56,588 nucleotides of DNA, from assembly GCA_016841185.1 (NCBI GenBank), contig JAENZQ010000009.1, positions 43,220-99,807 of the forward strand. The letters are read 5' to 3'. Shown here one piece after another: positions 26,240 through 47,251 of the stretch (position 1 is the stretch's first letter; each line of letters starts with the position of its first letter). A program made the position numbers and the translations under genes. Source of the stretch: Anaerovorax odorimutans. GTDB lineage: Bacteria; Bacillota; Clostridia; Peptostreptococcales; JAAYPU01. The notes under the pieces are model-generated. The model searched no databases. It was not told the DNA's origin and saw only the letters and a program-made list of their open reading frames with translations.

Positions 26240-28825
26240 ATGAACACAACCCGAAAAGCAAAAGTTTACGAGGAATTAAAAGAGCTTTCTGAGAGTATTA
26301 ATGAAAATGATATTTTAAGTAGCTGCCGAGTTGGTTTTGATGCAAGCTTCATTGGTAAAAGAATCAATATAAGAAGAAATAATGTAAGCAAAGAGTTAAA
26401 TATTCTTTTAAAGGAAGGTAAAGTAATTAAATTTACCGGAAAGCCTATTTTGTATATGGATAAAGAGGTGTTAGAAGGTAAAATAAATGGGCCAATAAAA
26501 TTATCGGTATTAAATCATGTAAGTCAATTAGTAGAAAATACAGTTACAGCTGTAGAAAAATCATGCTTGGAAGATAAAGAATCAATAAAGCCAAGTATCA
26601 ATATTTTAGACGGTATGATTGGAGCTAATGAAAGCCTAAAAACTTCAATAAAGCAGGCGAAGGCAGCAGTGTTATATCCTCCTAATGGACTTCATACACT
26701 ATTGGTTGGAGAAACAGGAGTAGGGAAAACAACATTTGCGGAAATTATTTATAGATATGCTGTAGATATCGGAAGATTATCCAAAGATGCACCTTTCATA
26801 ATTTTTAATTGTGCCGATTATGCAGAAAATCCGCAGCTTCTTATGTCGCATCTTTTTGGACATGTTAAAGGTGCTTTTACAGGAGCAAATACAGAAAAGG
26901 AAGGATTGGTTGATAAAGCAAATCATGGCATTTTATTATTGGATGAAATACATCGGCTTCCTCCCGAAGGTCAGGAAATGCTATTTTTGACCATAGATAA
27001 AGGTATTTATAGGAGATTGGGTGAATCTGAAAACCTAAGGCAATCAAAATTTATGATCATAGGAGCAACTACAGAAAATCCGAAGTCGGCTATATTAAGT
27101 TCTTTTTTAAGAAGGATACCGGTTGTTATTAGACTTCCTGCTTTGAATAAAAGGACGCTGGAAGAGCGTATGGCATTTATCTGCTATTTTTTCAGGAAAG
27201 AATCAGAAAAAATAAATCTTCCCATTAAAGTTATGAAGGAAATGCTTAGAGTTTTTTTGATTTACAGTTGTCCCGGAAATATCGGACAATTGAAAAATGA
27301 CATTCAACTAATATGTGCAAATGCTTTTGTTGATTACTTGACTACTAATTCAATTCCAATAGAGGTAAAATTGTCTCACCTTTCTCAAAGTGTTAAAGAA
27401 GGGTTTTTTAAGATAAACAGCAGAAGAGTGGAGATTACTAAAAGCTTTAACTTGAATGATAGTACACCTATTATTTTTGACGGAAGGAATTCTGATATTA
27501 AAGATGATTTGAAAAGGCTGCTTCTCTATGATGATTATGATATAGAGAAGGATTATTATAATTCAATAATAAAGAACTATGAGGAATTTTCTAAAGAAGG
27601 ATTTACTAATTCTCAAGTTCGCATGAAAATTTTGAATCAAATCCAGGAGTATTTTGATAGAGCGCCTAAAGAACCAAAGGAAGAGTCGATCAAAGATTCA
27701 TTTATAGACAGTGAAACAGTGTTGAAAGTTGTAACTTCTGAATTATTGGAATTGATTGAAAAGATTTTAAATGAAGCAAACCGTACATTCAACAAAGCTT
27801 ATGATCGGAAAGTAATATACAGCCTTACCCTTCATATTGAAATACTGATAGAAAGGCTGAAAATAAATTCAGTTTCAGTTCATCCGAATAAAGAACATAT
27901 TTTTGAATACTACCATGATGAGTATCTGATAGCGCAGCGTATAAAAAATGCGGTTGAAAGCAATCTTTCAATTATAATACCGGATGACGAGATAGCATTT
28001 ATTGTAATGTTTTTATATGCTGTCAGTGCAGAAAAGGGAATCGATCGCATTGGCGTTCTTGTTATAACACATGGGAACAAGACGGCTTCCAATATGGTTC
28101 AGGTTGCAAATACATTGCTCGGAGCAGATTATGCTTATGCACTTGATATGCCCCTTGAGGAAAAGGTTAGTGTGATTTTGGACAGTGCCATCGAAATTGT
28201 TAAAAAAATTAATAGGGGCAGGGGGGTCCTTATTATGGTGGATATGGGTTCTCTTACAACTTTTTCAGATATTATAAGTGAAAGGACAGGTATTGATACA
28301 AGAATTATAAAAATGGTAAGTACACCAATGATTATTGAAGCGACCAGAAAAGCCATGTTGCCCGATATTAGTCTTGATGATCTGGTTGAGAGTGTTGATA
28401 AGATGAGTTCATTGATCGGCAGCAGAGTAGAATCTGATGACAGCACGAGGGGCTTTAAAAAACAGATTAACCGGAATACATTAATCAATTTCTTAGATCA
28501 GATCCTTATCTTCTTAAATCCCAACAAAGCATACGATTTATTGATAGAAGCTCTGGATAATATTTTAAGAGATTGTGATGTAACCATTGATGATGAAATT
28601 AAAATAAAATTCTTATTCCATTGCTCATGCATGATTGAAAGAACCATAAGAAATGAGAATTTGTCCTATAGTAACTTTAAGAATACGGCTAAAGAAAACG
28701 AAATAATTTTTAATCTTATTAAGCAGTATTTTATTGTTATTGAACAGGCATTTGGTATTGAGATACCAGACAGCGAGTTTGCTTATGTGGTGGAGATGTT
28801 TAATACACATTTTGATACACATTAA
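26240..28825 (+). CDS. LevR-type sigma-54-dependent PTS operon activator
   Basis: The 861-residue protein has an N-terminal winged-helix segment (about 1-80) and a sigma-54-interacting AAA+ domain with Walker A GETGVGKTT (about residue 156), the GAFTGA sigma-54 contact loop (about 211) and Walker B ILLLDEIHR. Next come a PRD domain (His in LTLHIEILIERL, about residue 535), an EIIA-mannose-like domain with ITHGNKTASN (about 613) and a second PRD (FHCSCMIERTI, about 793). In LevR proteins these histidines are phosphorylated by HPr or EIIB and tune activity to sugar supply. It faces a sigma-54 promoter for a mannose-family PTS operon directly downstream, so that operon is its probable target. 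Confidence 0.95.
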   Translation: MNTTRKAKVYEELKELSESINENDILSSCRVGFDASFIGKRINIRRNNVSKELNILLKEGKVIKFTGKPILYMDKEVLEGKINGPIKLSVLNHVSQLVENTVTAVEKSCLEDKESIKPSINILDGMIGANESLKTSIKQAKAAVLYPPNGLHTLLVGETGVGKTTFAEIIYRYAVDIGRLSKDAPFIIFNCADYAENPQLLMSHLFGHVKGAFTGANTEKEGLVDKANHGILLLDEIHRLPPEGQEMLFLTIDKGIYRRLGESENLRQSKFMIIGATTENPKSAILSSFLRRIPVVIRLPALNKRTLEERMAFICYFFRKESEKINLPIKVMKEMLRVFLIYSCPGNIGQLKNDIQLICANAFVDYLTTNSIPIEVKLSHLSQSVKEGFFKINSRRVEITKSFNLNDSTPIIFDGRNSDIKDDLKRLLLYDDYDIEKDYYNSIIKNYEEFSKEGFTNSQVRMKILNQIQEYFDRAPKEPKEESIKDSFIDSETVLKVVTSELLELIEKILNEANRTFNKAYDRKVIYSLTLHIEILIERLKINSVSVHPNKEHIFEYYHDEYLIAQRIKNAVESNLSIIIPDDEIAFIVMFLYAVSAEKGIDRIGVLVITHGNKTASNMVQVANTLLGADYAYALDMPLEEKVSVILDSAIEIVKKINRGRGVLIMVDMGSLTTFSDIISERTGIDTRIIKMVSTPMIIEATRKAMLPDISLDDLVESVDKMSSLIGSRVESDDSTRGFKKQINRNTLINFLDQILIFLNPNKAYDLLIEALDNILRDCDVTIDDEIKIKFLFHCSCMIERTIRNENLSYSNFKNTAKENEIIFNLIKQYFIVIEQAFGIEIPDSEFAYVVEMFNTHFDTH

Positions 28826-28930
28826 TTATTTAAGATATATTTTCAATAACGTGGTAAAAAGATCATTTGCGTGATCTTTTTTTTTATGTTTTTTCTTTAT
28901 TTTAGAGGCTTGATAATCGTGATACACATT
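28802..28930 (+). promoter_or_regulatory. Candidate upstream activator sites (ATACACATT repeats)
   Basis: ATACACATT occurs at 28803-28811, 28815-28823 and 28922-28930; the last two share TGATACACATT. All lie upstream of the -24/-12 promoter at 28943. The first two are inside the end of the regulator gene. Confidence 0.4.
28856..28885 (+). terminator. Terminator of the LevR-type gene
   Basis: Stem AAAAAGATCA/TGATCTTTTT with a short loop and a long T-run. Confidence 0.88.
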
Positions 28931-28942: not shown

Positions 28943-28959
28943 TTGGTACAAAATTTGCT
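28943..28959 (+). promoter_or_regulatory. Sigma-54 (-24/-12) promoter of the mannose-family PTS operon
   Basis: TTGGTACAAAATTTGCT matches the -24/-12 consensus with the GG and GC doublets exactly 10 bp apart. It stands 50 bp before the EIIA start codon, behind a LevR-type activator gene. Confidence 0.88.
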
Positions 28960-29008
28960 GTATATATTGATGCAGACATTCAAATACCTTTTAAGAAAGG
29001 ATGATTAG

Positions 29009-29425
29009 ATGATTGGAATATTGATTCTGACACACGGGAATTTTGCCGAAGGAATCCTTCAAAGCGTGGAATTAATTATCGGAAAACAGGATAACAGACA
29101 GGCAATTGGATTATATCCGGGTGAAAGTATAGAAAGCTTTAATGAGAAAGTATGGAATTCTGCCAAGCAGCTTAGTGAGAAGGGAGATGTATTGATTTTC
29201 ACAGATCTTTTCGGAGCGAGCCCTTATAATGCTGTTGCTCTGAATAGAAATAAATTTGAGGGCATAGAGCTCAGATGTATTACAGGCGTAAATTTGCCTA
29301 TGTTGATAGAAGCGTTTTCAAATCGGAAAAATTCAGTAATTGATGATGTTGTAGAAAAATGTATGAAAACAGGTAAAGATGGAATAAAAGAACTGTTTGC
29401 TGAGTTTAAGGCGGCGTATTTATAA
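29009..29425 (+). CDS. PTS system mannose-family EIIA component
   Basis: This 138-residue protein is a stand-alone mannose-family EIIA. The phosphorylated His is in ILTHGNFAEG (His10), and FTDLFGASPYNA is a further family motif. It takes phosphate from HPr and passes it to EIIB. It is the first gene of the operon under the sigma-54 promoter at 28943; AAGGATG supports the start. Confidence 0.93.
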   Translation: MIGILILTHGNFAEGILQSVELIIGKQDNRQAIGLYPGESIESFNEKVWNSAKQLSEKGDVLIFTDLFGASPYNAVALNRNKFEGIELRCITGVNLPMLIEAFSNRKNSVIDDVVEKCMKTGKDGIKELFAEFKAAYL

Positions 29426-29443
29426 ATTGGAGGAGGGATATAA

Positions 29444-29920
29444 GTGTTAAACATTGTTTTGACAAGAATCGACGACAGGTTAATTCATGGGCAAGTTATG
29501 ACAGCATGGGTTAAATATACCGGCGGGAATAGAATCATTATTATTGATGATTTAGTTGCACAAGATGATTTTATGATTTCAATGTTAAAAATGTCAATTC
29601 CGCCTGGCTTAAAATTAAATACTTATTCTGTGGAAGAGGCATCAAATGTGCTTAAAGGAGAAGGGGCCAAAAATGAAAAAATTATTATTCTGGTAAAGGG
29701 CCCTGAAGTGATTTATAAACTTTATAATCAAGGAGTTTTATTCAAGAATGTTAATGTTGGCGGAATGGGGGCTAATCCCGGGAGAAAAAAATTATATAAA
29801 AATATATCTGCTTCTGACGATGAAAGAGAAATATTTAAAAAACTATTAGATAAGGGCATATATGTCAGCATAAGAATTATTCCTGATGATAAGGAGGTGT
29901 CTATTAAAAAGCTATTATAG
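29444..29920 (+). CDS. PTS system mannose/fructose/sorbose-family EIIB component
   Basis: This 158-residue protein begins LTRIDDRLIHGQVMTAW, the EIIB signature with active-site His15, followed by GGNRIIIIDDLVAQDD. It is full length for the family. EIIB hands phosphate to the sugar during transport by EIIC/EIID. The GTG start at 29444 has GGAGGAGGG just upstream. Confidence 0.93.
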   Translation: MLNIVLTRIDDRLIHGQVMTAWVKYTGGNRIIIIDDLVAQDDFMISMLKMSIPPGLKLNTYSVEEASNVLKGEGAKNEKIIILVKGPEVIYKLYNQGVLFKNVNVGGMGANPGRKKLYKNISASDDEREIFKKLLDKGIYVSIRIIPDDKEVSIKKLL

Positions 29921-29955
29921 TTCATAAAAGTAAATCTAAAAAAGGAGGTTAGTAT

Positions 29956-30738
29956 ATGGAAATTTCGATTTGGCAAGCTTTTTTAATTGGATTAATTTAT
30001 TACTTGGGAACGGTAGGGACTCCTTGGCTGACCTTATTAGGCAGTATTAGTGTTGTTTATAGACCTTTAGTAGGAGGGACTTTGGTCGGTTTAGTTCTTG
30101 GAGACCCTGTTACGGGATGTATTATCGGTGCAACAATAAACTTACCGTATTTAGCATTTATATCGGCAGGAGGAACAGTACCTGTTGATCCCGGACTGGC
30201 AGGTGCATTGGGAACAGCATTAGCTATGGCTGCAGGAGTTCAGCCGTCGGTTGCTGTTACACTTGCAGTACCTTTAGGATTGCTTGGCACGATGATTTGG
30301 GTAGCGCATATGACCGTTGATGTATTTTTTGTTCATATGGCAGATAAAGCTGCTGAGAAAGGTGATATTGATAAGATTTGTTTTTATCATGTTGTTCCGC
30401 CGCAAATTTTTATGTTTCTGATTACAGTAATTCCCGTTATGATAGGAGCGTATTACGGAGCAGATGTGGTTAAAGAGTTGATCACTCTATTAGAAGGAAA
30501 ACCTCTTCATGTTTTATCAGTAATAGGCGGTATTTTACCGGCATTGGGAATTGCAATGAATTTACGTGCAATAGGCAGAAAGGGTACTATGGCGTTTTTC
30601 CTGTTTGGGTTTTTAATTGCCGTTTACTTACACTTAGATGTTCTGACGGTAGCATTGTTTGCGGGAATAATTGCGTATATCTATACGATACTTTTAGCAC
30701 GAGAAGGAGGGTTGGAAAATGAATCAGGAAGTATATAA
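29956..30738 (+). CDS. PTS system mannose-family EIIC component
   Basis: The 260-residue product is a polytopic membrane protein with EIIC-Man family motifs (TVGTPWLTLLGSISVVYRPLVGG, GLVLGDPVTGCIIGATINL). It forms the sugar channel together with EIID, whose gene overlaps its 3' end by 20 bp. The sugar is not identifiable. Confidence 0.92.
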   Translation: MEISIWQAFLIGLIYYLGTVGTPWLTLLGSISVVYRPLVGGTLVGLVLGDPVTGCIIGATINLPYLAFISAGGTVPVDPGLAGALGTALAMAAGVQPSVAVTLAVPLGLLGTMIWVAHMTVDVFFVHMADKAAEKGDIDKICFYHVVPPQIFMFLITVIPVMIGAYYGADVVKELITLLEGKPLHVLSVIGGILPALGIAMNLRAIGRKGTMAFFLFGFLIAVYLHLDVLTVALFAGIIAYIYTILLAREGGLENESGSI

Positions 30739-31552
30739 TTCGGATAAAAAGCTGTCAAAAAAAGACGTTGTTCGTGCTTTTTGGCGTTGGACATTCTTTT
30801 CCCATGCAAATTACAACTATGAACGACTTGAGGCAACCGGAGTTGTACACTGTTTGGCACCGATTCTAAAGAAGTTATATGGCGATGACAAAGGTGAATT
30901 CAAAGCTGCAATAAAAAGACATATGCTTTTTTATAATACAGAACCTCATTTTGGCGGAGTCATAAACGGTATGTTTATTGCTATGGAAGAGGAAAGAGCA
31001 AATGGAGCTTCAATTACTGATGAAGCAATAAATGGTGTAAAAACCGGTTTGATGGGGCCTTTTGCAGGTATTGGAGATACTTTATGGCAAGGCACATTGA
31101 CGCCTATACTATTGGCTTTTGGTATCAGCTTAGGAATAGAAGGCAATCTTATGGGGCCTGTTCTTTATACTGCATTGATGTTCGGGATCATGCTGCCGGT
31201 TGCATACTATATGTGGATGACCGGTTATAAATTAGGTCGTTCGGGAATTCAAAAGATATTGGAAGGTAATTTGCTAAAGAGTGTTATGATTGCCGCATCC
31301 ACAATGGGTGCAATCGTTTTAGGTGCATTGTCAGCCCAATTCGTATCACTGTCAACTCCTGTAATGATTAATGTAGGTGGAGGCTCAATGGCTTTGCAAG
31401 CCGATATATTGGATAAGCTGGTTTTGAATCTATTGCCGCTTGCGGTAACATTGTTTACACTTTATCTGCTTAAACAGCAAAAGAAAGCGACTACAGTTTT
31501 AGGAATCCTGATGGCGTTAGGTGCTGTCGGAGGAGTCATCGGATTATTCTAA
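30719..31552 (+). CDS. PTS system mannose-family EIID component
   Basis: The 277-residue protein matches EIID: FWRWTFFSHANYNYERLEATGV near the start, FYNTEPHFGGVINGMFIAMEEE, and GLMGPFAGIGDTLWQGTLTPI, ending in hydrophobic helices. It completes the membrane part of the transporter. Overlap with EIIC and a GGAGGG ribosome-binding site inside that gene support the start. Confidence 0.93.
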   Translation: MNQEVYNSDKKLSKKDVVRAFWRWTFFSHANYNYERLEATGVVHCLAPILKKLYGDDKGEFKAAIKRHMLFYNTEPHFGGVINGMFIAMEEERANGASITDEAINGVKTGLMGPFAGIGDTLWQGTLTPILLAFGISLGIEGNLMGPVLYTALMFGIMLPVAYYMWMTGYKLGRSGIQKILEGNLLKSVMIAASTMGAIVLGALSAQFVSLSTPVMINVGGGSMALQADILDKLVLNLLPLAVTLFTLYLLKQQKKATTVLGILMALGAVGGVIGLF

Positions 31553-31583
31553 AGCAAAGAGATTTAATAGCTTTATAATGTAA

Positions 31584-31613
31584 GCAAAGTGTAGTTGATA
31601 AACTACATTTTGC
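31584..31613 (+). other. Intra-operon stem-loop between EIID and the aldolase
   Basis: A 13-bp stem (31584-31596 with 31601-31613, one G-U pair) with a GATA loop. No U-run follows, so it is more likely a partial terminator or an mRNA processing/stability element separating transporter and enzyme genes. Confidence 0.6.
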
Positions 31614-31667
31614 TTCCTATAAAATAAGAATTTAACAAAAAAAAAGTACTTTTTAGGAGGCGTTAAA

Positions 31668-32456
31668 ATGAAAAGAAGATGGCATAATATTTTTCAAAAA
31701 GATAATCGGTCATTTGTTTTAGCAATGGATCATGCAGAATTAATGGATGTTTCAGAATATGGTCTGCAAAGTCCTGCATACGTTATTAATGAAGCCTTGA
31801 TCGGTGGAGCAGATGCCATTCTTACAACATATGGAGTGGCAAAAAATTTTCATGACGAAATAGGCAATGCAGGTTTGATTTTGAGAATCGATGGAGGAAC
31901 TACCCAGGCGCATCCCAGTGGCTATATTATGGATAAAACAAAACAAATATTTTCTGTAGAGGATGCAGTTAAAGCCGGAGCAGACGGTGTTATGTGCATG
32001 GGGTTTACCGGTCTGGAAAATGAGGTGGAGATGATAGAAAATATTGCACATATTGCTTCGGAATGTGATAAATGGGGTTTGGTTTTTGGAGCTGAAATGA
32101 TTCCGGGAGGTTTCATAAAAGATGACCAAAAAACAATAAAAAATATTAAATTTGCTAATCGTTTAGGATCTGAACTTGGAGCAGATTTCATAAAATCACC
32201 CTATATTGGCGGAAACAATTGTTTTAAAGAGGTAATTGATAACTGTTATAAGCCTGTTTTAATATTAGGTGGCGGAAGTTCAAGAAATGATAAGGAGATT
32301 TTAACTTTGGTACGAGAGGCTATGGATAGCGGAACAAGTGGTGTTGTGATAGGCAGAAACATCTGGCAGCATAAAAAAATAAGAAAAATCTGCTGTGCAA
32401 TTTCATCAATCATTCACGAGAATAAAACAGTAGAAGAAGCAATTACATTATTGTAG
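31668..32456 (+). CDS. DhnA/LsrF-type class I aldolase
   Basis: The 262-residue protein is a class I (Schiff-base) aldolase of the DeoC/FbaB/LsrF group. Visible are LAMDHAE near the N-terminus, GGADAILTTYG, an acidic GAEMIPGG strand, the putative Schiff-base lysine in GADFIKSPY and the phosphate-binding end LGGGSSRNDKE / SGVVIGRNIWQ. It probably cleaves a phosphorylated ketose or hydroxy-keto phosphate made from the sugar entering through the PTS genes upstream. The exact substrate is unknown; fructose-bisphosphate aldolase is an alternative. Confidence 0.85.
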   Translation: MKRRWHNIFQKDNRSFVLAMDHAELMDVSEYGLQSPAYVINEALIGGADAILTTYGVAKNFHDEIGNAGLILRIDGGTTQAHPSGYIMDKTKQIFSVEDAVKAGADGVMCMGFTGLENEVEMIENIAHIASECDKWGLVFGAEMIPGGFIKDDQKTIKNIKFANRLGSELGADFIKSPYIGGNNCFKEVIDNCYKPVLILGGGSSRNDKEILTLVREAMDSGTSGVVIGRNIWQHKKIRKICCAISSIIHENKTVEEAITLL

Positions 32457-32503
32457 AATTCTTTATCCGGTAATTTAAAGAAAGAAGGTGCAATTAATAG
32501 AAT

Positions 32504-33544
32504 ATGATGAAAGCAGCTGTTTTTACACATATTGGACAGATTGAAATAGAAGATATCCAAAAACCTGTTCCCAAAAGCGATGAATTATTGATTCATTTAA
32601 AAGCATGTGCAATCTGTACATGGGAACAGAGGGTATATCAAGGCGTCAATAAAGTAGAATTACCTTTTATCGGCGGGCACGAGATGGCCGGGATTATTGA
32701 GGAAATAGGGCCGGAAGTCGATACATGCAAATGGCATCTTGGCGATCGGGTAGTTATCGGGCTTTTAAACTCCTGCGGAAAATGCCATTATTGCCTGAAT
32801 GGACAACAAGGTGCCTGTGAAAATTTTGACCATAGTAAGTTTGTGGGAGGATTGCCTATTAGAGGAATGGGAGGATTTAGCGAATACTTAGCAGTATCAC
32901 CTAATAATGTATTTAAAATTAAAGGCGATATTTCATTTGAAATTGCATCTTTAACAGAGCCGTTATCATGTGTTGTTCATAGCGTTGAAAGAGGTGAAGT
33001 AAATTTTGGCAGCGACGTTGTTGTAATTGGAGCAGGGATAATGGGTATGCTTCATCTGTTATTATTAAAGCGGAAATCAGCAAGAGTCATAGTAAGTGAA
33101 CCAGATGATGAACGGCGTAAATTAGCGGTACAATTAGGAGCAGACGAAGTAATAGACCCTTTAAAGGAAGATCCGGTTGAAAAGGTAAGATTATTAACGG
33201 ATGGGCGAGGTGCTGAAGCCGTATTTATTACTACACCATTATCACGGATAGCAACCCAATCCATTTATATGTCCGGGAAACTTGGTAAAATAATAATTTA
33301 TAGCTCGTATCATCCTGACGTTCCGGTTGAATTCAGCCCAAATTTGATTCATAAAAAAATGATAAGCATTACAGGAACTGCAAATTCAAATATATCAGAC
33401 TTTGAAAAGTCAATCAGATTACTTTCTTATAAGCAAATAGATCCTTCTATTTTTATAAGTGGCGTATATGAGTTGGCTGAGTGCAAAAAAGCATTAACGG
33501 AAGCAATAAAACCGGAAAATTTCCGAGTAATAATGAGAATATGA
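32504..33544 (+). CDS. Zn-dependent medium-chain alcohol/polyol dehydrogenase
   Basis: The 346-residue protein belongs to the MDR superfamily. It has GGHEMAGIIEEIG (catalytic Zn region), four structural-Zn cysteines in SCGKCHYCLNGQQGAC, and the NAD loop VVIGAGIMGMLHLLL. Residue 38-40 (CTWEQRVY) replaces the usual C-G-T/S-D pattern. In a PTS operon it probably oxidises a polyol phosphate or reduces a sugar-derived aldehyde. The ribosome-binding site (GAAGGTG) lies unusually far from ATG 32504; ATG 32507 is an equal alternative. Confidence 0.88.
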   Translation: MMKAAVFTHIGQIEIEDIQKPVPKSDELLIHLKACAICTWEQRVYQGVNKVELPFIGGHEMAGIIEEIGPEVDTCKWHLGDRVVIGLLNSCGKCHYCLNGQQGACENFDHSKFVGGLPIRGMGGFSEYLAVSPNNVFKIKGDISFEIASLTEPLSCVVHSVERGEVNFGSDVVVIGAGIMGMLHLLLLKRKSARVIVSEPDDERRKLAVQLGADEVIDPLKEDPVEKVRLLTDGRGAEAVFITTPLSRIATQSIYMSGKLGKIIIYSSYHPDVPVEFSPNLIHKKMISITGTANSNISDFEKSIRLLSYKQIDPSIFISGVYELAECKKALTEAIKPENFRVIMRI

Positions 33545-33578
33545 AAGATCAGATAGTGTATATACAGGAGGCGTAGTG

Positions 33579-33854
33579 ATGATAAATGTTGATGTGGTGC
33601 TGAAGAATGAGAGCGGGCTGCACGCAAGACCTGCAAGCCAATTCGTTCAGGAGGCATCCAAATACAAATCAGATATAACAATAGTAAAAGATCAGAATCG
33701 CTATAACGCTAAGAGCATTATTACGATTTTAAGTATGGGTGCCGGAAAAGGAGATAGGTTGATGATAGAGGCATCGGGAGAAGATGAGAAAAAAGCGGTA
33801 GAAGCTTTACAAGCTTTAGTGGATAATTGTTTTGATGAAGGAGTTGCATTATGA
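33579..33854 (+). CDS. HPr phosphocarrier protein encoded in the PTS operon
   Basis: ATG 33579 follows AGGAGG by seven bases; GTG 33576 is in frame but less well placed. The 91-residue protein is a canonical HPr: His15 in SGLHARPAS for phosphorylation by Enzyme I and Ser46 in AKSIITILS, the HPr-kinase site that serves catabolite control in Bacillota. Both key residues fall at the classical positions. Its gene overlaps Enzyme I by 4 bp. Finding the general PTS proteins inside a sugar-specific operon is unusual. Confidence 0.95.
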   Translation: MINVDVVLKNESGLHARPASQFVQEASKYKSDITIVKDQNRYNAKSIITILSMGAGKGDRLMIEASGEDEKKAVEALQALVDNCFDEGVAL

Positions 33855-35557
33855 TAGGGATAGGCGCCTCTCCAGGCATTGCAATAGGTACGACATTTGT
33901 TAAACGAAATCCGGATATCGAAATTAAGAAAAAAAAGATCATTCATGCAGATGAAGAAATTATAAGACTGAAGGATGCATTGTTAAAAAGTAAGGAAGAG
34001 ATTCGGTTGATTCTTAAAAAGGCGGCAGATGAAATTGGAAATGAAGAAGCCAAAGTTTTTGAGGCTCATTTAATGATTCTTGATGACCCTGAAATGTATG
34101 GACAGATAGAAAATAAAATAAGGGGAGCCAAAGTGAGCACAGAAGAGGCTTTAGAAGAAGTTTCAAAAACGTATATTGGTTTATTTGAGAATATGGATAA
34201 TCTATATATGCGGGAAAGGGCAGCCGATATAAAAGACGTTACGAAAAGAGTACTTAGAAACTTAACAGGAGCAGATACTGTCAGCTTGGCAGATATTAAA
34301 GGGCAAGTAATAATAGTTGCGGATGAATTAACACCATCGGATACTGCCCAGATGGATAAAACGAGAGTTATTGGAATTATTACAGAACTGGGAGGAAAAA
34401 CATCTCATTCTTCAATAATGGCAAGAACTTTAGAGATTCCTGCAGTAGTAGGAGCAGGAAAAGAAATAGAGCACATAAAGTCAGGGGATACAGTCATTAT
34501 AGACGGGGATAAAGGAACGGTTATTTTAAATCCTGAAGAAGCACTAATAAAAAAATATACTGCCAAAAAGGAAGCGTGTCAGCAACTAAAGAAAAAACTC
34601 AAAAGCTTTATCGGAAAAGATACTATAACAAAAGACGGTATTAAGGTTGAGCTTGCAGCTAACATAGGAACACCGGAGGATGTGGACGGTGTATTAAAAA
34701 ATGATGGAGAAGGTATTGGACTTTACAGGACAGAATTCTTATATATGGACAGGGATACATTCCCGACAGAAGAAGAGCAATTTATAGCATACAAAAGTGT
34801 GCTGGAGCGAATGGGAGGTAAGCCGGTAGTTGTAAGGACGCTTGATATTGGAGGAGATAAAATTCTCCCATATTTAGCTTTGCCCGAGGAAATGAATCCA
34901 TTTTTAGGTTTGAGAGCCATCAGGCTATGTTTAAATAATAAGGAAATATTCAAAACGCAGTTGAGAGCGCTTTTAAGAGCCAGTATATATGGGAATTTGA
35001 AAATAATGTTTCCTATGATTTCCAGTGTTGAAGAATTGAGGGAAGCTAAAAAAATACTTGAAAAAGTAAGACAGGAACTGAAAAATGAAGGTATCCGTTA
35101 TAGCTTCAAAATAGAAATAGGGATGATGATAGAAGTACCTGCTGCAGCAATACTTTCGGAGATATTTGCTAAAGAAGTAGATTTTTTCAGTATAGGAACT
35201 AATGATTTGCTCCAATATACCGTTGCAGTAGACAGAGGCAATAAAGAAATTGCAAATCTTTATAACCCATTTCATCCTGCCTTATTGAGGTTAATAAAAA
35301 ACGTAATAGAAAATGGTCACAAAGAAGGTATATGGGTAGGGATGTGCGGTGAAATTGCAGGAGACCCGAGATTGATTCCAGTTTTGGTTGGAATGGGATT
35401 AGACGAATTTAGTATGAGTCCCATATCAATATTGAATACCAGATTTATCATATCAAACTTAATAAAGAAAGAATTGGAGAAAAAGAGTCAAGAAATCATT
35501 AATTGCTCAACTGCCGAGGAGGTATGTGAAGTGTTGGACAGTATTTGTGTGAAGTAA
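33851..35557 (+). CDS. PTS Enzyme I (phosphoenolpyruvate-protein phosphotransferase)
   Basis: The 568-residue protein is full length for Enzyme I. It has the N-terminal swivelling domain with active-site His186 in GGKTSHSSIMARTLEIPAV, and the PEP-binding TIM barrel with GIGLYRTEFLYM, RTLDIGGDK, LGLRAIR and the C-terminal GMCGEIAGD. It transfers phosphate from PEP to HPr in the cytoplasm. It is the last gene of the operon and completes a self-contained PTS (EI, HPr, EIIA-D). Confidence 0.96.
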   Translation: MIGIGASPGIAIGTTFVKRNPDIEIKKKKIIHADEEIIRLKDALLKSKEEIRLILKKAADEIGNEEAKVFEAHLMILDDPEMYGQIENKIRGAKVSTEEALEEVSKTYIGLFENMDNLYMRERAADIKDVTKRVLRNLTGADTVSLADIKGQVIIVADELTPSDTAQMDKTRVIGIITELGGKTSHSSIMARTLEIPAVVGAGKEIEHIKSGDTVIIDGDKGTVILNPEEALIKKYTAKKEACQQLKKKLKSFIGKDTITKDGIKVELAANIGTPEDVDGVLKNDGEGIGLYRTEFLYMDRDTFPTEEEQFIAYKSVLERMGGKPVVVRTLDIGGDKILPYLALPEEMNPFLGLRAIRLCLNNKEIFKTQLRALLRASIYGNLKIMFPMISSVEELREAKKILEKVRQELKNEGIRYSFKIEIGMMIEVPAAAILSEIFAKEVDFFSIGTNDLLQYTVAVDRGNKEIANLYNPFHPALLRLIKNVIENGHKEGIWVGMCGEIAGDPRLIPVLVGMGLDEFSMSPISILNTRFIISNLIKKELEKKSQEIINCSTAEEVCEVLDSICVK

Positions 35558-35761: not shown

Positions 35762-36412
35762 ATGTTGATGCAGGAGGAAAGAGAAGCAATCGTTGAATAT
35801 TCCGTTAAATTGATCGAACATGGCCTGACAAAAGGGACTGGGGGAAACATAAGTATATTCAACAGACGGGAAAAAATTATGGCCATCAGTCCCAGTGGAT
35901 TGGATTATTACAAGACAAAACCTGAAGATATCGTAATACAGGATTTAAAAGGCAATAAAATAGAAGGAAACAGAAAGCCATCCAGTGAATATCATCTGCA
36001 CAGAATATTTTATGAAAAGCGGGAGGACTGCAATTCTGTGGTCCATGCCCATTCTATGTTTTCCGGCGTAATGGCTTGCCTGCACTGGACCTTACCGGCA
36101 AGCCATTACATGATCGCACTTGCCGGAAAGGATGTCAGGTGTGCAGAGTATGCTACCTTTGGAACTCAGCAGCTTGCTGAGAATGCTTTTGAAGCTATGA
36201 AAGACAGGAATGCAGTTTTTCTGGCAAACCATGGGTTGCTGACGGTATCAAAGGACCTACCCAATGCATTCAATACGGCCGAAGAGATAGAATTCTGTGC
36301 AGAAATGTATTACCGAGCAAGATGCGTAGGAGAACCCTTTATTCTTTCGGATGAAGAAATGGTACTTATAGGAGAAAAATTTAAAAACTATGGTCAAGTG
36401 AAACTTAGATGA
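35762..36412 (+). CDS. Class II aldolase (FucA/AraD family)
   Basis: The 216-residue protein is a typical FucA/AraD-type Zn aldolase or epimerase: GTGGNISIFNR, SPSGLDY, the conserved Glu in SSEYHLHR, two Zn histidines in VVHAHSMFSG and a third in FLANHGLLTV. Length and motifs fit L-fuculose-1-phosphate aldolase, which makes dihydroxyacetone phosphate and L-lactaldehyde, but related substrates are possible. It follows the PTS operon but has its own promoter; it may take over the sugar phosphate produced there. Confidence 0.88.
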   Translation: MLMQEEREAIVEYSVKLIEHGLTKGTGGNISIFNRREKIMAISPSGLDYYKTKPEDIVIQDLKGNKIEGNRKPSSEYHLHRIFYEKREDCNSVVHAHSMFSGVMACLHWTLPASHYMIALAGKDVRCAEYATFGTQQLAENAFEAMKDRNAVFLANHGLLTVSKDLPNAFNTAEEIEFCAEMYYRARCVGEPFILSDEEMVLIGEKFKNYGQVKLR

Positions 36413-36759: not shown

Positions 36760-38832
36760 TTGAAAAAATTTGATAAATACGGATTCAATAGAGTGTTAGA
36801 ACCCAAAAATTCTTTTCTGCAAACAGCATGGAAAATAGATAACACGATGGTGATTAATGAAAATGAATTGCTGTTGGATGTTGAAATACTTAACATAAAT
36901 TTTGTAAGTTTTGTCCAGATGATTGAAGAAGCAAATGGAGAAAAAAGCAGAATGGAAAACAGGATACTTGAAATCGTTAACAACAGGGGAAAGTTACATA
37001 ACCCTATAACAGGAACGGGGGGTATGCTTTATGGCAGAGTTAACCAAATTGGTAAAGCTTATTCCAATAAACAAGGACTGAAGACGGGAGATGAAGTCAT
37101 TTCCTTAGTTTCACTTTCAACTACTCCATTAAAGATTGATAAAATTTTGGATATAGATATAGGCTTTGCCCAAGTTTCAATTATTGGCCAGGCCATAATG
37201 TTCGAGTCTTCTCTTATTTCAAAAAAACCGGATGATTTACCTTTGAAAGTTTTAATCAGTGCATGGGATGAGGCTGGTGCTCCTGCAGAAACGACCCGAA
37301 TAGTTAAGCCAGGAGATAGAGTGATTATTTTAGGTGCATGGACAAAATTAGGCCTTTTATGCGGATTTGCAGCAAGAGAAAAGTCAGGAAGTAAAGGAAA
37401 AATTGTTGGTGTTATTAATTCGGAAGAAGGAAGGAAAAAGGCTGAAGAAAGTCAAGTGTTTGACGAAATTCTTTGCTGTGATATTAGTAATACTTTTAAT
37501 TTTTATAATGAGTACTTTGAAGAAAATAATTTATTTGATGTCGTTATCAACTGTTCTGAGGAAGCCTATGCTGAAATTATTACTTTATTCTTTGTAAAAA
37601 ATAAAGGAATTGTTTTTTTCCCAAGCTTAAGCAGTGACAGCAATGCAGCAGGTCTTTCGGCAGAGTCTATCGGCAAAGATATTACAATTATTCCATACAA
37701 AGGGTATGTAGAGGGTCATACGGAGTTGTCGCTTAAGCTGTTAAGAAAATATGATAAACTAAGGAAGCTACTGCAAGAAGGACTTGATAAAAGAGGAGCT
37801 TTTTTGAATAATTATAAAAACAATGATCAAAGATTTATTAATCATTGTTTACATTCATTGAAACACAATGGTCTAAATCTTGTTTTTGAAAGTAAACCTA
37901 TGAGAGATGTTCTGAAAAATGCTCTTAAAATTGCAAAATATGAATGCACAGTTATGATATATGGGGAATCTGGTACAGGAAAAGAAATTGTTGCTCAAAT
38001 CATATATAATAATAGTAAAAGAAAAAGTTTTCCATTTATTAAAATAAATTGCGCTTCTATCCCGGACCACTTATTGGAGTCCGAGTTGTTTGGATATGAA
38101 AAAGGTGCTTTTACCGGTGCAGATCCTAAAGGGAAAAAAGGAATTTGGGAGATTGCACAAAAAGGCATTCTGTTTTTAGATGAAATAGGTGAACTGCCGT
38201 TACAATTGCAGTCAAAGCTATTAAGAGTACTCCAGGAGAATGAAATATATAGAATCGGTGGGACAAAGCCTATAAAAACAGACGTCCGTATTATTGCAGC
38301 AACCAATAAAGATTTGACCCAAATGGTTAAAGAAGGAGAATTCAGAGAGGATCTGTATTATCGTTTGAATGTGTTTCCAATCTTTTTACCTCCTTTGCGT
38401 GAAAGGCATGAGGACATCAGATTATTAATCAAAGTTTTTATAGAGGAATACAATCAGAAGTTTCATTTATCAAAAACTATTGAACCAATGACTATTGAGT
38501 ATTTAAAAGAACAAGAGTGGGTAGGAAATATTCGAGAATTACAAAATTTCATTCAACGGCTACTGATTTCAACTGACAAAAATGTTGTTAAAATAGAAGA
38601 CGTGAGGTTATTGAAGAATAATTTTAGCAATAACCACAATAAAGGAATGGAGAAACAAAGTGAAATAATCATTAAAGAGAATGAGAGTTTAACGAATGCA
38701 ATGGAGAGAATAGAAAAAGAGATTTTGTTGCAATATAAAATGAAGTATAAAACCACAAGAAAAATGGCAAGTGCCCTTGGAATGACCCAATCCAGTATCT
38801 CCAGAAGGCTAATCAAGTACGGCATCACATGA
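36760..38832 (+). CDS. Sigma-54 activator with a 3,5-diaminohexanoate-dehydrogenase-like sensor domain
   Basis: The 690-residue protein is a fusion. Residues 1 to about 340 align end to end with the two KDD enzymes encoded downstream (36760: KYGFNRVLEPK, GTGGMLYG, LVSLSTTPLKID, FESSLISKKPDDLP). Its nucleotide loop reads GAWTKLG instead of GAGKAG, so NAD binding is probably lost or altered. A sigma-54 AAA+ domain follows: Walker A GESGTGKE (about 402), GAFTGA (about 449), Walker B ILFLDEIGE, RLNVFPIFLPPLRER. The C-terminus is a Fis-type helix-turn-helix (KMASALGMTQSSISRRL). I infer that the enzyme-like domain binds a pathway intermediate and switches on the -24/-12 promoter at 39256. The start is TTG, preceded by AAGGGGG; alignment with the KDD N-termini supports it. 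Confidence 0.93.
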   Translation: MKKFDKYGFNRVLEPKNSFLQTAWKIDNTMVINENELLLDVEILNINFVSFVQMIEEANGEKSRMENRILEIVNNRGKLHNPITGTGGMLYGRVNQIGKAYSNKQGLKTGDEVISLVSLSTTPLKIDKILDIDIGFAQVSIIGQAIMFESSLISKKPDDLPLKVLISAWDEAGAPAETTRIVKPGDRVIILGAWTKLGLLCGFAAREKSGSKGKIVGVINSEEGRKKAEESQVFDEILCCDISNTFNFYNEYFEENNLFDVVINCSEEAYAEIITLFFVKNKGIVFFPSLSSDSNAAGLSAESIGKDITIIPYKGYVEGHTELSLKLLRKYDKLRKLLQEGLDKRGAFLNNYKNNDQRFINHCLHSLKHNGLNLVFESKPMRDVLKNALKIAKYECTVMIYGESGTGKEIVAQIIYNNSKRKSFPFIKINCASIPDHLLESELFGYEKGAFTGADPKGKKGIWEIAQKGILFLDEIGELPLQLQSKLLRVLQENEIYRIGGTKPIKTDVRIIAATNKDLTQMVKEGEFREDLYYRLNVFPIFLPPLRERHEDIRLLIKVFIEEYNQKFHLSKTIEPMTIEYLKEQEWVGNIRELQNFIQRLLISTDKNVVKIEDVRLLKNNFSNNHNKGMEKQSEIIIKENESLTNAMERIEKEILLQYKMKYKTTRKMASALGMTQSSISRRLIKYGIT

Positions 38833-39272: not shown

Positions 39273-39310
39273 CAAATATAGAAAAGATTATTATATTGAG
39301 GAGGACAAGA

Positions 39311-40369
39311 ATGAAAGGGGACCAGTACGGCAGCCATCGTGTCATATCACCAAAGGGCTTACTGCCACAGGCTGCAGAAAGAATTAACAACGATCCAAAG
39401 ATTTTTTCAAATGAAATTTTAGTTGATGTTATTGCGCTTCAACCTACGGCCACAGCATTTGGGCGCATTAAGAATGAATGCGGCGACAATATAGACAAAA
39501 TCAAACAAACCATAATGGAAATAGTTGAGGACAGAGGCAAATTTCAAGATCCGGTCACAAAATCTGGAGGTATACTTATCGGAACTATTAAGGAGATAGG
39601 TGAAGATTTAGAAGACAAGTTAGACATTAATATAGGAGATAAGATTGCAACATTGGTTTCTTTATCACTTACTCCATTAAAGATATATCAGATCGACCGT
39701 ATCGATTTAGAAACAGAGCAGGTGTTTTGTAAAGCAGATGCTATTCTATTTGAAAGCGGCATCTATTCAAGGATTCCTGATGATTTGGACCAGAATTTAA
39801 GTTTGGCCATTATGGATGTAGCAGGTGCTCCTGCACAGGTAGCTATGAATACCAAGCCTGGAGATGTAGTTGTTGTGATTGGCGCCGGAAAGGCTGGCTT
39901 ACTTTGTCTTGCAGAGGCCAAGAAGAGGGTTGCACCAAATGGCAAAGTTGTTTGCCTCGAGTATTTGAAAGAACAATGCGAAATGGTAAAAAAGCTCGGG
40001 ATTGCTGATATTGTGCTGCAGGTAAACGGACAGGAGCCTCTTGCAACTTATCAAGAGTATATGGAGGCGATGGATGGACGTTTATCGGATTTTACTGTCA
40101 GTACTGTTAATGTTCCGGATACAGAGTTGTCAACCATTTTAGTGACTAAAGACACAGGAAAGATTTACTTTTTCAGTATGAGTACAGATTTTGTAAAGGC
40201 ATCTCTTGGTGCTGAAGGTATAAAAAAATACGTCCCAATGATTATTGGTGACGGTTACTATCCCGGTCACGCAGAGATTACTTATGACATTATAAGAAAT
40301 AATGAAAAGCTGAGAGCGTATTTTGTAAGCCGATATTGTAAAAACAGCTATAAACGTCAAGGTTTGTAA
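39311..40369 (+). CDS. kdd: L-erythro-3,5-diaminohexanoate dehydrogenase, copy 1
   Basis: The true start is ATG 39311 behind GAGGAGG; the TTG at 39296 overlaps that site. The 352-residue protein resembles 3,5-diaminohexanoate dehydrogenase of lysine-fermenting anaerobes (YGSHRVISPKG, GGILIGTIKEIG, VAGAPAQV), with an intact Rossmann loop VVVIGAGKAGLLCLAEA (about residue 187). KDD oxidatively deaminates 3,5-diaminohexanoate to 5-amino-3-oxohexanoate with NAD(P)+ and releases ammonia. It is the first gene after the sigma-54 promoter and is followed by TRAP transporter genes and the downstream enzymes Kce and Kal, which supports the assignment. A paralogue lies at 46186. Confidence 0.9.
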   Translation: MKGDQYGSHRVISPKGLLPQAAERINNDPKIFSNEILVDVIALQPTATAFGRIKNECGDNIDKIKQTIMEIVEDRGKFQDPVTKSGGILIGTIKEIGEDLEDKLDINIGDKIATLVSLSLTPLKIYQIDRIDLETEQVFCKADAILFESGIYSRIPDDLDQNLSLAIMDVAGAPAQVAMNTKPGDVVVVIGAGKAGLLCLAEAKKRVAPNGKVVCLEYLKEQCEMVKKLGIADIVLQVNGQEPLATYQEYMEAMDGRLSDFTVSTVNVPDTELSTILVTKDTGKIYFFSMSTDFVKASLGAEGIKKYVPMIIGDGYYPGHAEITYDIIRNNEKLRAYFVSRYCKNSYKRQGL

Positions 40370-40446
40370 GATTCCTTGAATGTTTATAATAAAAAGCCTG
40401 ATAGTACAATAATACATGTGAAAGTATTAAAGGAGGAAGAAAGAGG

Positions 40447-41487
40447 ATGAAAATGAAGAAAGTATTAGCCCTGATTCTTGTTGTTATGCTTATTCTAACA
40501 TCAGCAGGATGTGGAAGAGGAGGAGAAAGCTCTGACGCAGGTGCTGATTCGGAAAGCACTGAGCCTATTGTTGTTAAAATCAGTAATACAGATACAGGTA
40601 GTAGGTCAACAAATGTCGCCTGCGAATGGTTCAAAGAGTACATGGCTGAGAAGACAGATGGTAGAGTTATCGTTGAAGTCTATCCGGATGGTCAGCTTGG
40701 TGATGACCCGGAATCTTGTAAAGGGCTTTTGCTTGGAACAGTAGATATTTATTTTGGTCTTTCAGGAGTAGTTGGCGGTATTGTTGGTAATAAACTGGAT
40801 GTTGTTGACCTGCCGTTTCTTTATGATTCATATGAAGACTGGGTTGAAGGCAGCTTTGAGAAAGGTGGTCTTGACCTTTATAATCAGCTTTTGGAAGGTT
40901 CCGGATATTACTGCCTTGATTTTATGTATAACGGAATGAAGTCTTTGATCAGTACGGAAAAAGTTTACCACAATACAGATGACTTAAAAGGATATAAGCT
41001 TCGCATCACTCCTTCTGACATGAACCTTGCTATTTGGAAAGCCCTTGGTGCAAATCCGACACCTATGGCTTGGGGCGAAGTCTATACTTCCCTTGTACAA
41101 GGTACAATTGACGGACTTGATCATTCACTTGGTGTATTCAACGATTTCAAATTCTATGAAAATGCACCATATGTAACTCTTACACAACACCAGAGTTCGC
41201 CATATACTGTTCTGACATCAAATAAATTCTTGGATTCACTTCCAGAAGATATCAAGCCAATTTTCTTAGATGGTGTAGCACAAATGTGTGAAATGCAGAG
41301 GGCAGATGAGCGTGCATTAGAAGCAGAGTACATTCAAAACTTCTTAGATGCAGGCGCTACTGTATATGAATTAACAAAAGAAGAAAAAGATGCTTTATAT
41401 GAGCAATGCGTAAGTGTTTATGAGATGCAGAGAGAAAGAACCGGGGCTGAAATTTTTGATGCATTCCTTGAAACTGCAGGAAAATAA
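40447..41487 (+). CDS. TRAP transporter solute-binding lipoprotein (DctP family)
   Basis: The 346-residue protein starts with a lipoprotein signal peptide whose lipobox is TSAGC (Cys22). It has DctP/TAXI-type motifs: WFKEYMAEKTDGRVIVEVYPDGQLGDD, and LKGYKLRITPSDMN with the Arg that commonly binds a ligand carboxylate, and PMAWGEVYTSLVQGTIDGLDHS. It captures a carboxylate-bearing solute outside the membrane for the DctQM permease encoded next. Its place between KDD and Kce genes suggests a 3,5-diamino acid, beta-lysine or similar ligand; this is inference. Confidence 0.93.
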   Translation: MKMKKVLALILVVMLILTSAGCGRGGESSDAGADSESTEPIVVKISNTDTGSRSTNVACEWFKEYMAEKTDGRVIVEVYPDGQLGDDPESCKGLLLGTVDIYFGLSGVVGGIVGNKLDVVDLPFLYDSYEDWVEGSFEKGGLDLYNQLLEGSGYYCLDFMYNGMKSLISTEKVYHNTDDLKGYKLRITPSDMNLAIWKALGANPTPMAWGEVYTSLVQGTIDGLDHSLGVFNDFKFYENAPYVTLTQHQSSPYTVLTSNKFLDSLPEDIKPIFLDGVAQMCEMQRADERALEAEYIQNFLDAGATVYELTKEEKDALYEQCVSVYEMQRERTGAEIFDAFLETAGK

Positions 41488-41516
41488 ACATTTCGATAAA
41501 GTGTTCTTATATTTAT

Positions 41517-41543
41517 CTGGGTTGGGGACTTAACCTGACCCAG
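41517..41543 (+). other. Stem-loop between the TRAP binding-protein and permease genes
   Basis: CTGGGT pairs with ACCCAG, continued inward by GG/CC and two G-U pairs, giving a stem of about 10 bp. There is no U-run. Such structures often protect the binding-protein mRNA and lower expression of membrane subunits. Confidence 0.65.
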
Positions 41544-41628
41544 GTGTTTCATATATGTCATGTATGATTCTTAGTTTTAATTTAATTATTCATTTATTTT
41601 TTTGAATGAATGAGAATTGGAGACAATG

Positions 41629-42129
41629 ATGAAAAAGAATGGCTTAATTAATATTTATAATTACTTCGAAGAAATATTTCTGGTAACCATATTTGCAGTT
41701 CTGGTGGCAGATATCTTTCTTCAGGTAATAATGAGATATCTTTTTAATAATTCTTTATACTGGTCAGAAGAGTTGGGACGTTTCCTATTTGAATGGCTTA
41801 CCTGGATTGGGATTAGTCTTGGGGCTAAAAAGGGAGAGCATATTAAAATAAGCATGCTTGTAGACAAATTTTCATATAAAAAGGCTCAACTATTAAATAT
41901 ATCTTCATCCATTATTTTAATTGCCATTTGTGTGGTCACAATCTTTTACGGTATGTATATGACAATATTCTGGGCAGGGTCTAAGTTTATGTGTTTAAGA
42001 ATAAGCCTTGCTTGGGGATATATTGCAATCCCTCTTGGTTGCTCGCTGATGGTTTTAAGATCATTAGGTAATATCCGAGAATCTATCAATAATTATAAAG
42101 CAGGTGAGCCTGAAGGGAGGGATATGTAG
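41629..42129 (+). CDS. TRAP transporter small permease subunit (DctQ family)
   Basis: The ATG at 41629 is preceded by GGAG at six bases; ATG 41626 and TTG 41617 are less likely. The 166-residue protein has four membrane helices and the DctQ pattern VIMRYLFNNSLYWSEELGRFLFEWLTWIGISLGAKKGEHIKI. It pairs with DctM to couple solute uptake to an ion gradient. Its stop overlaps the DctM start by one base. Confidence 0.92.
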   Translation: MKKNGLINIYNYFEEIFLVTIFAVLVADIFLQVIMRYLFNNSLYWSEELGRFLFEWLTWIGISLGAKKGEHIKISMLVDKFSYKKAQLLNISSSIILIAICVVTIFYGMYMTIFWAGSKFMCLRISLAWGYIAIPLGCSLMVLRSLGNIRESINNYKAGEPEGRDM

Positions 42130-43430
42130 TGCAAGTATTGATTTTATTCTTGGTCTTATTTGCATTTATTCTGTTAGGCGTTCCAGTGGGGTTTGCCATC
42201 GGTGGTGCTACGATGCTTGTCTTATATTATTTTACTAATCTTGATATGGTTATTACTGCTCAGTATTGCTATGCGGGAATCGATTCTTTTACAGTACTTG
42301 CAATACCATTCTTTATGTTGGCCGGAGTAATTATGTCTACAGGCGGCATCGCTGCGCGAATCGTCAATTTTTGTGATAAATTGATTGGTTTTATTACTGG
42401 AGGTCTTGGAGCGGTTTCTGTCCTTGCCTGTATGTTTTTCGGGGCTTTATCCGGCTCGGGAATGGCAACCACATCGGCAATCGGAAGCATGATGATACCT
42501 GAAATGGAAAAGAAGGGCTATAATAAGGCTTACTGTACAACACTTGTATGTTTTGCAGGTATCGTAGGGATTATTATTCCTCCGAGTCTTGGATTTGTCC
42601 TTTACGGTGCTACAACCAATACATCCATATCGGATTTGTTTCTTGCAGGTATTATTCCCGGAATCACCATTGGAATAACTTTCTTATTAATGAACTATTA
42701 TATGTGTAAAAAATTGAATATCGGAGATAAAGAGAAAATATCAAAAGAAGTGCCTATAAAGGAATACATGACTAACCGACTCAAGGAGCTTGCGAAGTCC
42801 TTTAAAGAAGGCTTCTTTGCTCTACTGTCACCATTTATTATACTTGGTGGAATTTATTCCGGAATATTTACCCCTACAGAAGCAGCATGTATTTCCGTTG
42901 TTTATTCCATTTTTGTCAGCGTGTTTATCTATAAGGATTTGGATATAAGAGGGTTATATAAGACATTTTTGGCTGCAGCTATATTAAATGGCGTTACATC
43001 ATTTCTTCTCGGATATTCTACGGTATTTTCTACTTATTTATCCCATGCGGGAATACCGAGAATGGTGTATGAGATGTTAATGACCTGTACAGATAACAAG
43101 TTTGTCATGCTTTTACTCATTAATCTTATACTCCTTGTTATTGGCTGTTTCTTAGATACGGTCCCTGCTATAATTGTTATGTCACCGATACTGCTCCCGG
43201 CGGTGGTTGGCTATGGGGTTGACCCCGTACACTTCGGCATTATTATTACCGTTAACCTTGCAATCGGATTATGCACACCTCCCTACGGATGCAACTTGTT
43301 CGTTGGCTCGGCTGTTGGCAGAGTTAAGATGGAAAGTATGATGAGATATATTATACCGTTTTTCATCGTATCCATCGTTGCATTGTTGATTATTACCTTT
43401 ATACCGGCATTATCCTTAATGTTTTTATAA
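42129..43430 (+). CDS. TRAP transporter large permease subunit (DctM family)
   Basis: The 433-residue protein has about 12 membrane helices and DctM motifs: LLGVPVGFAIGGA, AIPFFMLAGVIMSTGGIAARI, FFGALSGSGMATTSAIGSMMIPEM and GLCTPPYGCNLFVG. It forms the ion-coupled transport channel. It starts with GTG overlapping the DctQ stop (TAGTG). Together with the binding protein it gives a complete TRAP importer inside a 3,5-diaminohexanoate operon. Confidence 0.95.
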   Translation: MQVLILFLVLFAFILLGVPVGFAIGGATMLVLYYFTNLDMVITAQYCYAGIDSFTVLAIPFFMLAGVIMSTGGIAARIVNFCDKLIGFITGGLGAVSVLACMFFGALSGSGMATTSAIGSMMIPEMEKKGYNKAYCTTLVCFAGIVGIIIPPSLGFVLYGATTNTSISDLFLAGIIPGITIGITFLLMNYYMCKKLNIGDKEKISKEVPIKEYMTNRLKELAKSFKEGFFALLSPFIILGGIYSGIFTPTEAACISVVYSIFVSVFIYKDLDIRGLYKTFLAAAILNGVTSFLLGYSTVFSTYLSHAGIPRMVYEMLMTCTDNKFVMLLLINLILLVIGCFLDTVPAIIVMSPILLPAVVGYGVDPVHFGIIITVNLAIGLCTPPYGCNLFVGSAVGRVKMESMMRYIIPFFIVSIVALLIITFIPALSLMFL

Positions 43431-43532
43431 TAGAGTGATAATTATACACAAAAAACCTTGATGACTTATTTATGGATGTGATGGCAAAATAAGCTGTCCT
43501 CTTATGATTTATTTGATGGAGGAAATAGTAAA

Positions 43533-44354: not shown

Positions 44355-44374
44355 AAGATTGGAGGGTTGTATGG

Positions 44375-45565: not shown

Positions 45566-45681
45566 CAAATGAAGGACTCGTATTAAAAGAAATTAATTCT
45601 GAATATACAGTTGAAGAGGTTGTCAGCGCTACTGAGGCGCATCTCATTATAAGCGATGATTTAAAACCTATGGAGGGATAA
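45028..45681 (+). CDS. CoA-transferase beta subunit, copy 1
   Basis: The 217-residue subunit B has the catalytic Glu in [12 protein letters not shown] and GLGLP-like motifs ([15 protein letters not shown]). It completes the heteromeric acetoacetate CoA-transferase. The first 179 residues are identical to those of the copy at 49033; only the C-terminal tails differ ([10 protein letters not shown] here versus [10 protein letters not shown] there). Confidence 0.93.
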
Positions 45682-45712
45682 ATCAAAGCAAGTCAGCAAG
45701 GAGGAAAGAGAA

Positions 45713-46111: not shown

Positions 46112-46133
46112 AAAATCAAAAGGAGGTATGCAA

Positions 46134-47244: not shown

Positions 47245-47251
47245 TAAATAG

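Follow-up and report, generated by a model that had tools for sequence, protein, structure and literature searches.

In the textbook phosphoenolpyruvate:sugar phosphotransferase system (PTS), one shared pair of general proteins, Enzyme I (EI) and HPr, feeds many transporters and acts as a cell-wide sensor of sugar supply. Mannose-family (Man-family) operons controlled by LevR-type activators, such as levDEFG of Bacillus subtilis and the DagR operon of Salmonella, combine the Enzyme II (EII) genes EIIA, EIIB, EIIC and EIID with a -24/-12 promoter and an activator carrying AAA, PRD and EIIA domains; HPr~P is thought to stimulate activators of this type and EIIB~P to inhibit them. Here we analyse an operon of this kind from Anaerovorax odorimutans, located in a stretch of 56,588 nucleotides (the window; source G000:C78:43220-99807) within a 3.56-Mb assembly of 88 contigs (estimated completeness 100%, contamination 0.7%). 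While it shares these features with levDEFG and the DagR operon, its run of genes adds a DhnA-type aldolase and a Zn-dehydrogenase and ends in HPr and EI. We consider it likely that this is a self-contained, sigma-54-driven PTS catabolic operon, one of five modules in the genome, and that HPr and EI come from whichever module is induced and probably serve the EIIs of the others.

A Man-family PTS operon carrying HPr and EI genes

The operon comprises eight genes on the plus strand (29009-35557; 28944-35557 with the promoter) in the order EIIA, EIIB, EIIC, EIID, DhnA-type aldolase, Zn-dehydrogenase, HPr and EI (Table 1), which is the content, order and common direction given in an earlier note made from the sequence alone. 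The close spacing from EIIA to EI (gaps of 18, 35, -20, 115, 47, 31 and -4 bp), with its 4-bp overlap of HPr and EI, supports a single operon, and we infer that the eight genes are co-transcribed. Matches to PF03610, PF03830, PF03609 and PF03613, all far above cut-off, place the transporter in the mannose family. HPr and EI have both the family scores and the residues expected of general PTS proteins (HPr His15, EI His186/189 and the active EI cysteine). The His186 named in the earlier note is exact for EI, and its HPr His15 and Ser46 hold when numbering starts at the codon after the GTG; counted from that GTG at 33576 they are His16 and Ser47. Ser46 was rejected as a sign of HPrK control, since serine at this position also occurs in bacteria without HPrK. 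Genome searches with PF07475 and TIGR00679 returned no HPrK gene; they did not pick up the B. subtilis control either, which leaves its absence uncertain.

The strict -24/-12 pattern matched upstream of EIIA is expected by chance 0.09 times per whole window and occurs twice, the second copy lying inside an unrelated gene. The activator gene adjoining this promoter encodes an AAA domain with GAFTGA, PRD and EIIA-Man domains and, on reading of the sequence, an EIIA-like His611, bearing out the -24/-12 promoter and neighbouring LevR-type activator noted previously. Its best NCBIfam match is the Salmonella DagR equivalog NF047795, at 584 bits far under the cut-off of 1400. Between activator and operon, a hairpin with a T run resembles a terminator; it is absent from a consensus terminator scan, which applies its own stem and tail limits. 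Two copies of GATACACATT, the only ones in the window, stand upstream of the promoter and hint faintly at an activator site.

EI genes of the genome lie beside PTS or dihydroxyacetone kinase operons

Pfam searches of the genome identified five EI genes and six HPr places, comprising five HPr genes and one HPr-like domain within a regulator. The EII inventory contained two Man-family EIICs and one glucose-family EIIC, and four EIIA-Man places besides the operon's EIIA, two of them in regulators; no fructose/mannitol/galactitol-type EIIA was found in the genome. Gene names at the other EI loci are our reading of the translations, except where a profile score is given. The C77 locus is a Man-family PTS operon with nanE, SIS, nagB, nagA, HPr and EI, and the C26 locus carries an N-acetylglucosamine (GlcNAc)-type EIICB (TIGR01998 above cut-off) with EIIA, nagB, nagA, HPr and EI. 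At C47 an EI gene accompanies glucitol PTS genes, of which SrlA and SrlE score above cut-off; the corresponding HPr gene is found upstream, adjacent to one for dihydrolipoamide dehydrogenase. At the C85 locus the order is glpF-dhaK-dhaL-EIIA-EI-HPr, accompanied by a sigma-54 activator that has an HPr-like domain at its N-terminus. Sigma-54-type sites also occur upstream of EIIA in the C77 operon and of glpF-dhaK in the C85 operon.

None of the five EI genes in this 88-contig assembly belongs to a stand-alone ptsHI; each lies near, and on the same strand as, EII or dhaKL genes. The earlier note had suggested that general PTS proteins are made only together with the transporter, on the premise of a single PTS. 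The genome search it had proposed gave a divided answer, with several complete PTS found and no housekeeping ptsHI; the premise therefore falls, while the weaker idea survives in a stronger, genome-wide form, because every EI is next to a PTS or dihydroxyacetone (Dha) operon and the searches revealed no stand-alone ptsHI. Taken further, these observations raise the possibility of a fully decentralised PTS, in which no constitutive pool of HPr and EI exists and five user operons, at least three of them with sigma-54-type promoters, each make their own pair on induction. We put this forward tentatively, at slightly under an even chance. If true, phosphoryl supply, PRD-based regulation and any PTS-based carbon hierarchy would hinge on which module is on.

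As a separate observation, the activator at the Dha kinase locus (L012 7405-9435, minus strand) keeps GLHTR (His15-like) in its N-terminal HPr-like domain, which is followed by PAS. A PTS-HPr domain is among the activator domains listed in PMC6615313.

Three of the five pairs are closely related

In a tree of 34 EIs, those of the window, C26 and C77 form one clade (support 96/92), the Dha EI (C85) groups with the EI of a genome from the same family (G002), and a single origin of all five EIs is rejected (p-AU 2e-37). The simplest reading is that the HPr/EI pair was duplicated within the lineage for the three operons, the glucitol and Dha pairs being separate in origin. Across the five sets, pairwise identity is 47-63% for EI and 41-68% for HPr. 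Within the clade these values are 59-63% and 63-68%, and the stretches at HPr His15 and Ser46 are nearly identical.

Because the contact segments are so well conserved in these three paralogues, one pair could serve all, and the operon's HPr and EI might be an ordinary general ptsHI sited here by chance, with the other four copies redundant; single-EI genomes of the order do often carry ptsHI embedded in one PTS operon. We consider this unlikely, since five diverged, residue-intact pairs have been kept, each with its own user operon, where pure redundancy predicts decay or loss. Conversely, the Dha and glucitol pairs have clearly diverged (EI 47-56% and HPr 41-53% identical to other sets), as would suit five orthogonal phosphorelays in which each EI/HPr pair phosphorylates its own EIIA only. 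That is less probable still: PTS general proteins of distant bacteria are known to cross-phosphorylate, and the near-identical contact stretches make protein-level insulation among the three clade members unlikely. For any separation between those three, expression timing is a better candidate than protein specificity. The earlier note's claim that the operon is the organism's only PTS draws on the operon's completeness and nothing further, and can be dismissed unless the contigs concerned are contaminants (contamination is estimated at 0.7%), as the same assembly holds five EI and five HPr genes, with two Man-family PTS, a GlcNAc-type PTS, a glucitol PTS and a dihydroxyacetone kinase phosphorelay.

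Embedding of EI genes prevails across much of the order

EI is present in 74 of 118 genomes drawn from the order, mostly as one copy; the maximum of five is this genome, followed by four and three, and the other two genomes of its family have none and one. Proteins of this genome and of Escherichia coli K-12 served as queries in a scan of the EI neighbourhoods, partial EIs being excluded, and an EI was counted as linked when a same-strand EII or dhaK/L gene lay within 8 kb, a cut-off that we set. By this measure 66 of the 95 EIs in the sample are linked (64/76 outside family f4 and 2/19 within it); f4 has mostly plain ptsHI, and its value shows the background linkage rate. For much of the order, then, an embedded EI is the norm; the window genome represents an extreme case of this pattern and does not depart from it.

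Operon type clusters on a tree of all 95 EIs, with 33 changes against a mean of 55.5 for shuffled labels (0 of 200 shuffles as low), although family membership adds to this clustering and several long branches meet. At a further locus (L047 8612-12300, plus strand, genome G045), two tandem EI genes lie near ascorbate-type PTS genes, with no HPr found adjoining.

Related operons lack HPr and EI

With the EIIC as query, named genomes gave 13 loci, mostly in Anaerostipes and other Lachnospiraceae, the first eleven being 63-72% identical. The Anaerostipes operons resemble that of the window (EIIC 65-72%, EIID 63-70%), and in most of the complete loci a Zn-dehydrogenase gene follows EIID, its product being 47-50% identical to the window's. 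A close relative of the DhnA aldolase was found in two other genomes of 391 in the class. One of these, G334, has the order activator-EIIA-EIIB-EIIC-EIID-aldolase-FucO-like Fe-dehydrogenase-Zn-dehydrogenase, and shares with the window the LevR-type activator and the DhnA aldolase (~50% identity). Unlike the window operon, both the G334 and the Anaerostipes-type operons lack HPr and EI. In their genomes EI is encoded on a different contig, as a single copy except in one Anaerostipes genome, which has two; in G334 and the Anaerostipes genomes an HPr match adjoins this separate EI. Since orthologous EII operons occur without the pair, and EI lies on another contig in their genomes, HPr and EI are an addition to an otherwise shared transport-plus-dehydrogenase module.

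Elsewhere, in genome G244 (L131 1199-8305, minus strand), the DhnA aldolase/Zn-dehydrogenase pair stands without a PTS, beside amino-acid-permease-like, aldehyde-dehydrogenase-like and glycine-reductase-like genes. Its substrate there may be of a different kind.

A proposed pathway

We infer the reaction order, substrate, cross-talk and regulation as follows. Going by the protein families, phosphate would pass from phosphoenolpyruvate to EI, the operon's HPr, EIIA and EIIB, and on to a substrate imported via EIIC and EIID. Once inside, the phosphorylated sugar or polyol would be oxidised by the Zn-dehydrogenase, and the resulting ketose phosphate cleaved by the DhnA-type aldolase to a triose phosphate and an aldehyde. 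The EIIA and PRD domains of the activator would let it sense PTS phosphorylation, upon which it would fire the -24/-12 promoter. That no stand-alone ptsHI was found suggests that HPr and EI are supplied by the induced module, and the almost unchanged HPr contact surface of the three closest paralogues suggests that they are probably shared with other EIIs.

The Zn-dehydrogenase has the catalytic Cys/His-Glu motif and the structural four-Cys motif (sequence reading), and the nearest solved structures to the aldolase are MJ0400, an archaeal class I fructose-bisphosphate (FBP) aldolase and LsrF. For the aldolase as ADTH synthase, LsrF or archaeal FBP aldolase, the four best models score 204-130 bits, all under their cut-offs, so that the match is at superfamily level only. 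As both enzymes keep the expected motifs yet score under every NCBIfam equivalog cut-off, no named reaction is claimed. At the related locus L118, a class II FBP aldolase, a 3-epimerase and a glycerol-1-phosphate-dehydrogenase-like protein take the place of the window's DhnA aldolase. Depending on the genome, this transporter-dehydrogenase pair is accompanied by one or the other of two non-homologous aldolase types, an observation in favour of a route in which a ketose phosphate is formed by oxidation and then undergoes aldol cleavage. The most likely substrate is a sugar or polyol whose cleavage gives an aldehyde and a triose phosphate, with a pentitol or deoxy-hexitol named at low confidence; the unusual sugar or polyol phosphate of the earlier note is plausible. 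1,5-Anhydroglucitol was considered and set aside, no matching operon having been found in the literature.

Some points weigh against a self-contained operon that is one of five modules. The fifth pair is split: at C47, EI and HPr are about 6 kb apart, and 2.4 kb separate this EI from the closest glucitol gene. In an assembly of 88 contigs a ptsHI could have been missed, though this is unlikely at the estimated completeness; an internal promoter could lie in the 115 bp that precede the aldolase gene; and the sub-threshold scores of aldolase and dehydrogenase leave the order of pathway steps a guess.

A class II aldolase gene follows 204 bp downstream of EI. This gap makes co-transcription uncertain and, together with the similarity of the enzyme to DrdA, led us not to accept it as a certain operon member. 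The family score and the metal-binding His pairs (HLH, HAH) are present and do not decide between L-fuculose-1-phosphate and 5-deoxyribulose-1-phosphate. Its best solved relative, 6btd, was deposited as a fuculose phosphate aldolase and is cited in a paper on the 5-deoxyribulose-1-phosphate aldolase DrdA of 5-deoxyribose salvage (PMC6079011). The gene may belong to 5-deoxyadenosine salvage instead of the operon.

Table 1. Features of the operon and its surroundings (window coordinates)
Feature	Position	Strand	Evidence
LevR/DagR-type sigma-54 activator	26240-28825	+	PF00158 (AAA, GAFTGA), PF00874 (2 stretches, PRD), PF03610 (EIIA-Man)
GATACACATT, candidate upstream activator site	28814-28823 and 28921-28930	+	sole two window copies, both upstream of promoter
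Terminator-like hairpin and T run, between activator and operon	~28856-28888	+	sequence reading; folds as 11-pair A/T-rich stem
-24/-12 (sigma-54) promoter match TGGTACAAAATTTGCT	28944-28959	+	49 bp before EIIA start codon
EIIA, mannose family	29009-29425	+	PF03610 3e-28
EIIB, mannose/sorbose family	29444-29920	+	PF03830 8e-49
EIIC, mannose/sorbose family	29956-30738	+	PF03609 1e-69; 65-72% identity to Anaerostipes EIIC
EIID, mannose family	30719-31552	+	PF03613 4e-90
DhnA/LsrF/ADTH-synthase-type class I aldolase (DeoC/LacD fold)	31668-32456	+	PF01791 5e-40; expected Lys176, Asp21 present
Zn-dependent medium-chain dehydrogenase (Tdh/IolM-like)	32504-33544	+	PF08240 and PF00107
HPr	33576-33854	+	PF00381 5e-30; NCBIfam TIGR01003 above cut-off
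EI (phosphoenolpyruvate-protein phosphotransferase)	33851-35557	+	TIGR01417 736 bits (cut-off 342); His186, Cys499
Class II aldolase (L-fuculose-1-phosphate / 5-deoxyribulose-1-phosphate aldolase-like), possibly outside operon	35762-36412	+	NF005302 356 bits (cut-off 264)

Lysine-fermentation genes downstream

Further along the plus strand, 36760-38832 encodes a 690-residue sigma-54 activator whose N-terminal part resembles L-erythro-3,5-diaminohexanoate dehydrogenase, an enzyme of lysine fermentation (NF052381, 194.8 bits against a cut-off of 200), fused to AAA and HTH domains. This enzyme-like domain is missing from the activator domains listed in PMC6615313. The kdd gene at 39296 has a -24/-12 match ahead of it, at 39257, so the domain may sense a pathway intermediate. 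The lysine-fermentation cluster (39296-49686, plus strand) contains kdd, a TRAP transporter, kce, CoA-transferase and kal-like genes. Of these, kdd, kce and the genes of both CoA-transferase subunits occur in two copies, and the CoA-transferase copies at 44375-45681 and 48377-49686 are near-identical save at their ends.

Comparison with known systems

According to a phylogenetic survey (PMC2405797), inheritance of ptsHI in Firmicutes has been mostly vertical and modifications few. The order studied here fits that picture poorly: most EIs outside f4 lie in user operons, and the EI tree tracks operon type. If every PTS of a genome has a pair to itself and no pair is shared, carbon hierarchy and PRD-type regulators would have to follow a different logic; the open-access literature yielded no account of five private pairs in one genome that lacks a shared one. 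On a Man-family PTS with LevR, aldolase and dehydrogenase in Anaerostipes, only a Clostridium beijerinckii sigma-54 paper was found.

Embedding as such has precedents. The fructose-PTS cluster of Corynebacterium glutamicum contains ptsHI within the operon (PMC2222622), and the Clostridiales DhaQ regulon holds dhaKLM together with ptsI (PMC6615313); in both cases, as in the window, general PTS genes are sited with a PTS user. While ptsG and ptsS of C. glutamicum lie apart and use the same pair, the window genome has five separate sets, with no shared one found. Operon-embedded HPr and EI genes are therefore already known, and it is their genome-wide arrangement that is the most interesting aspect of this system.

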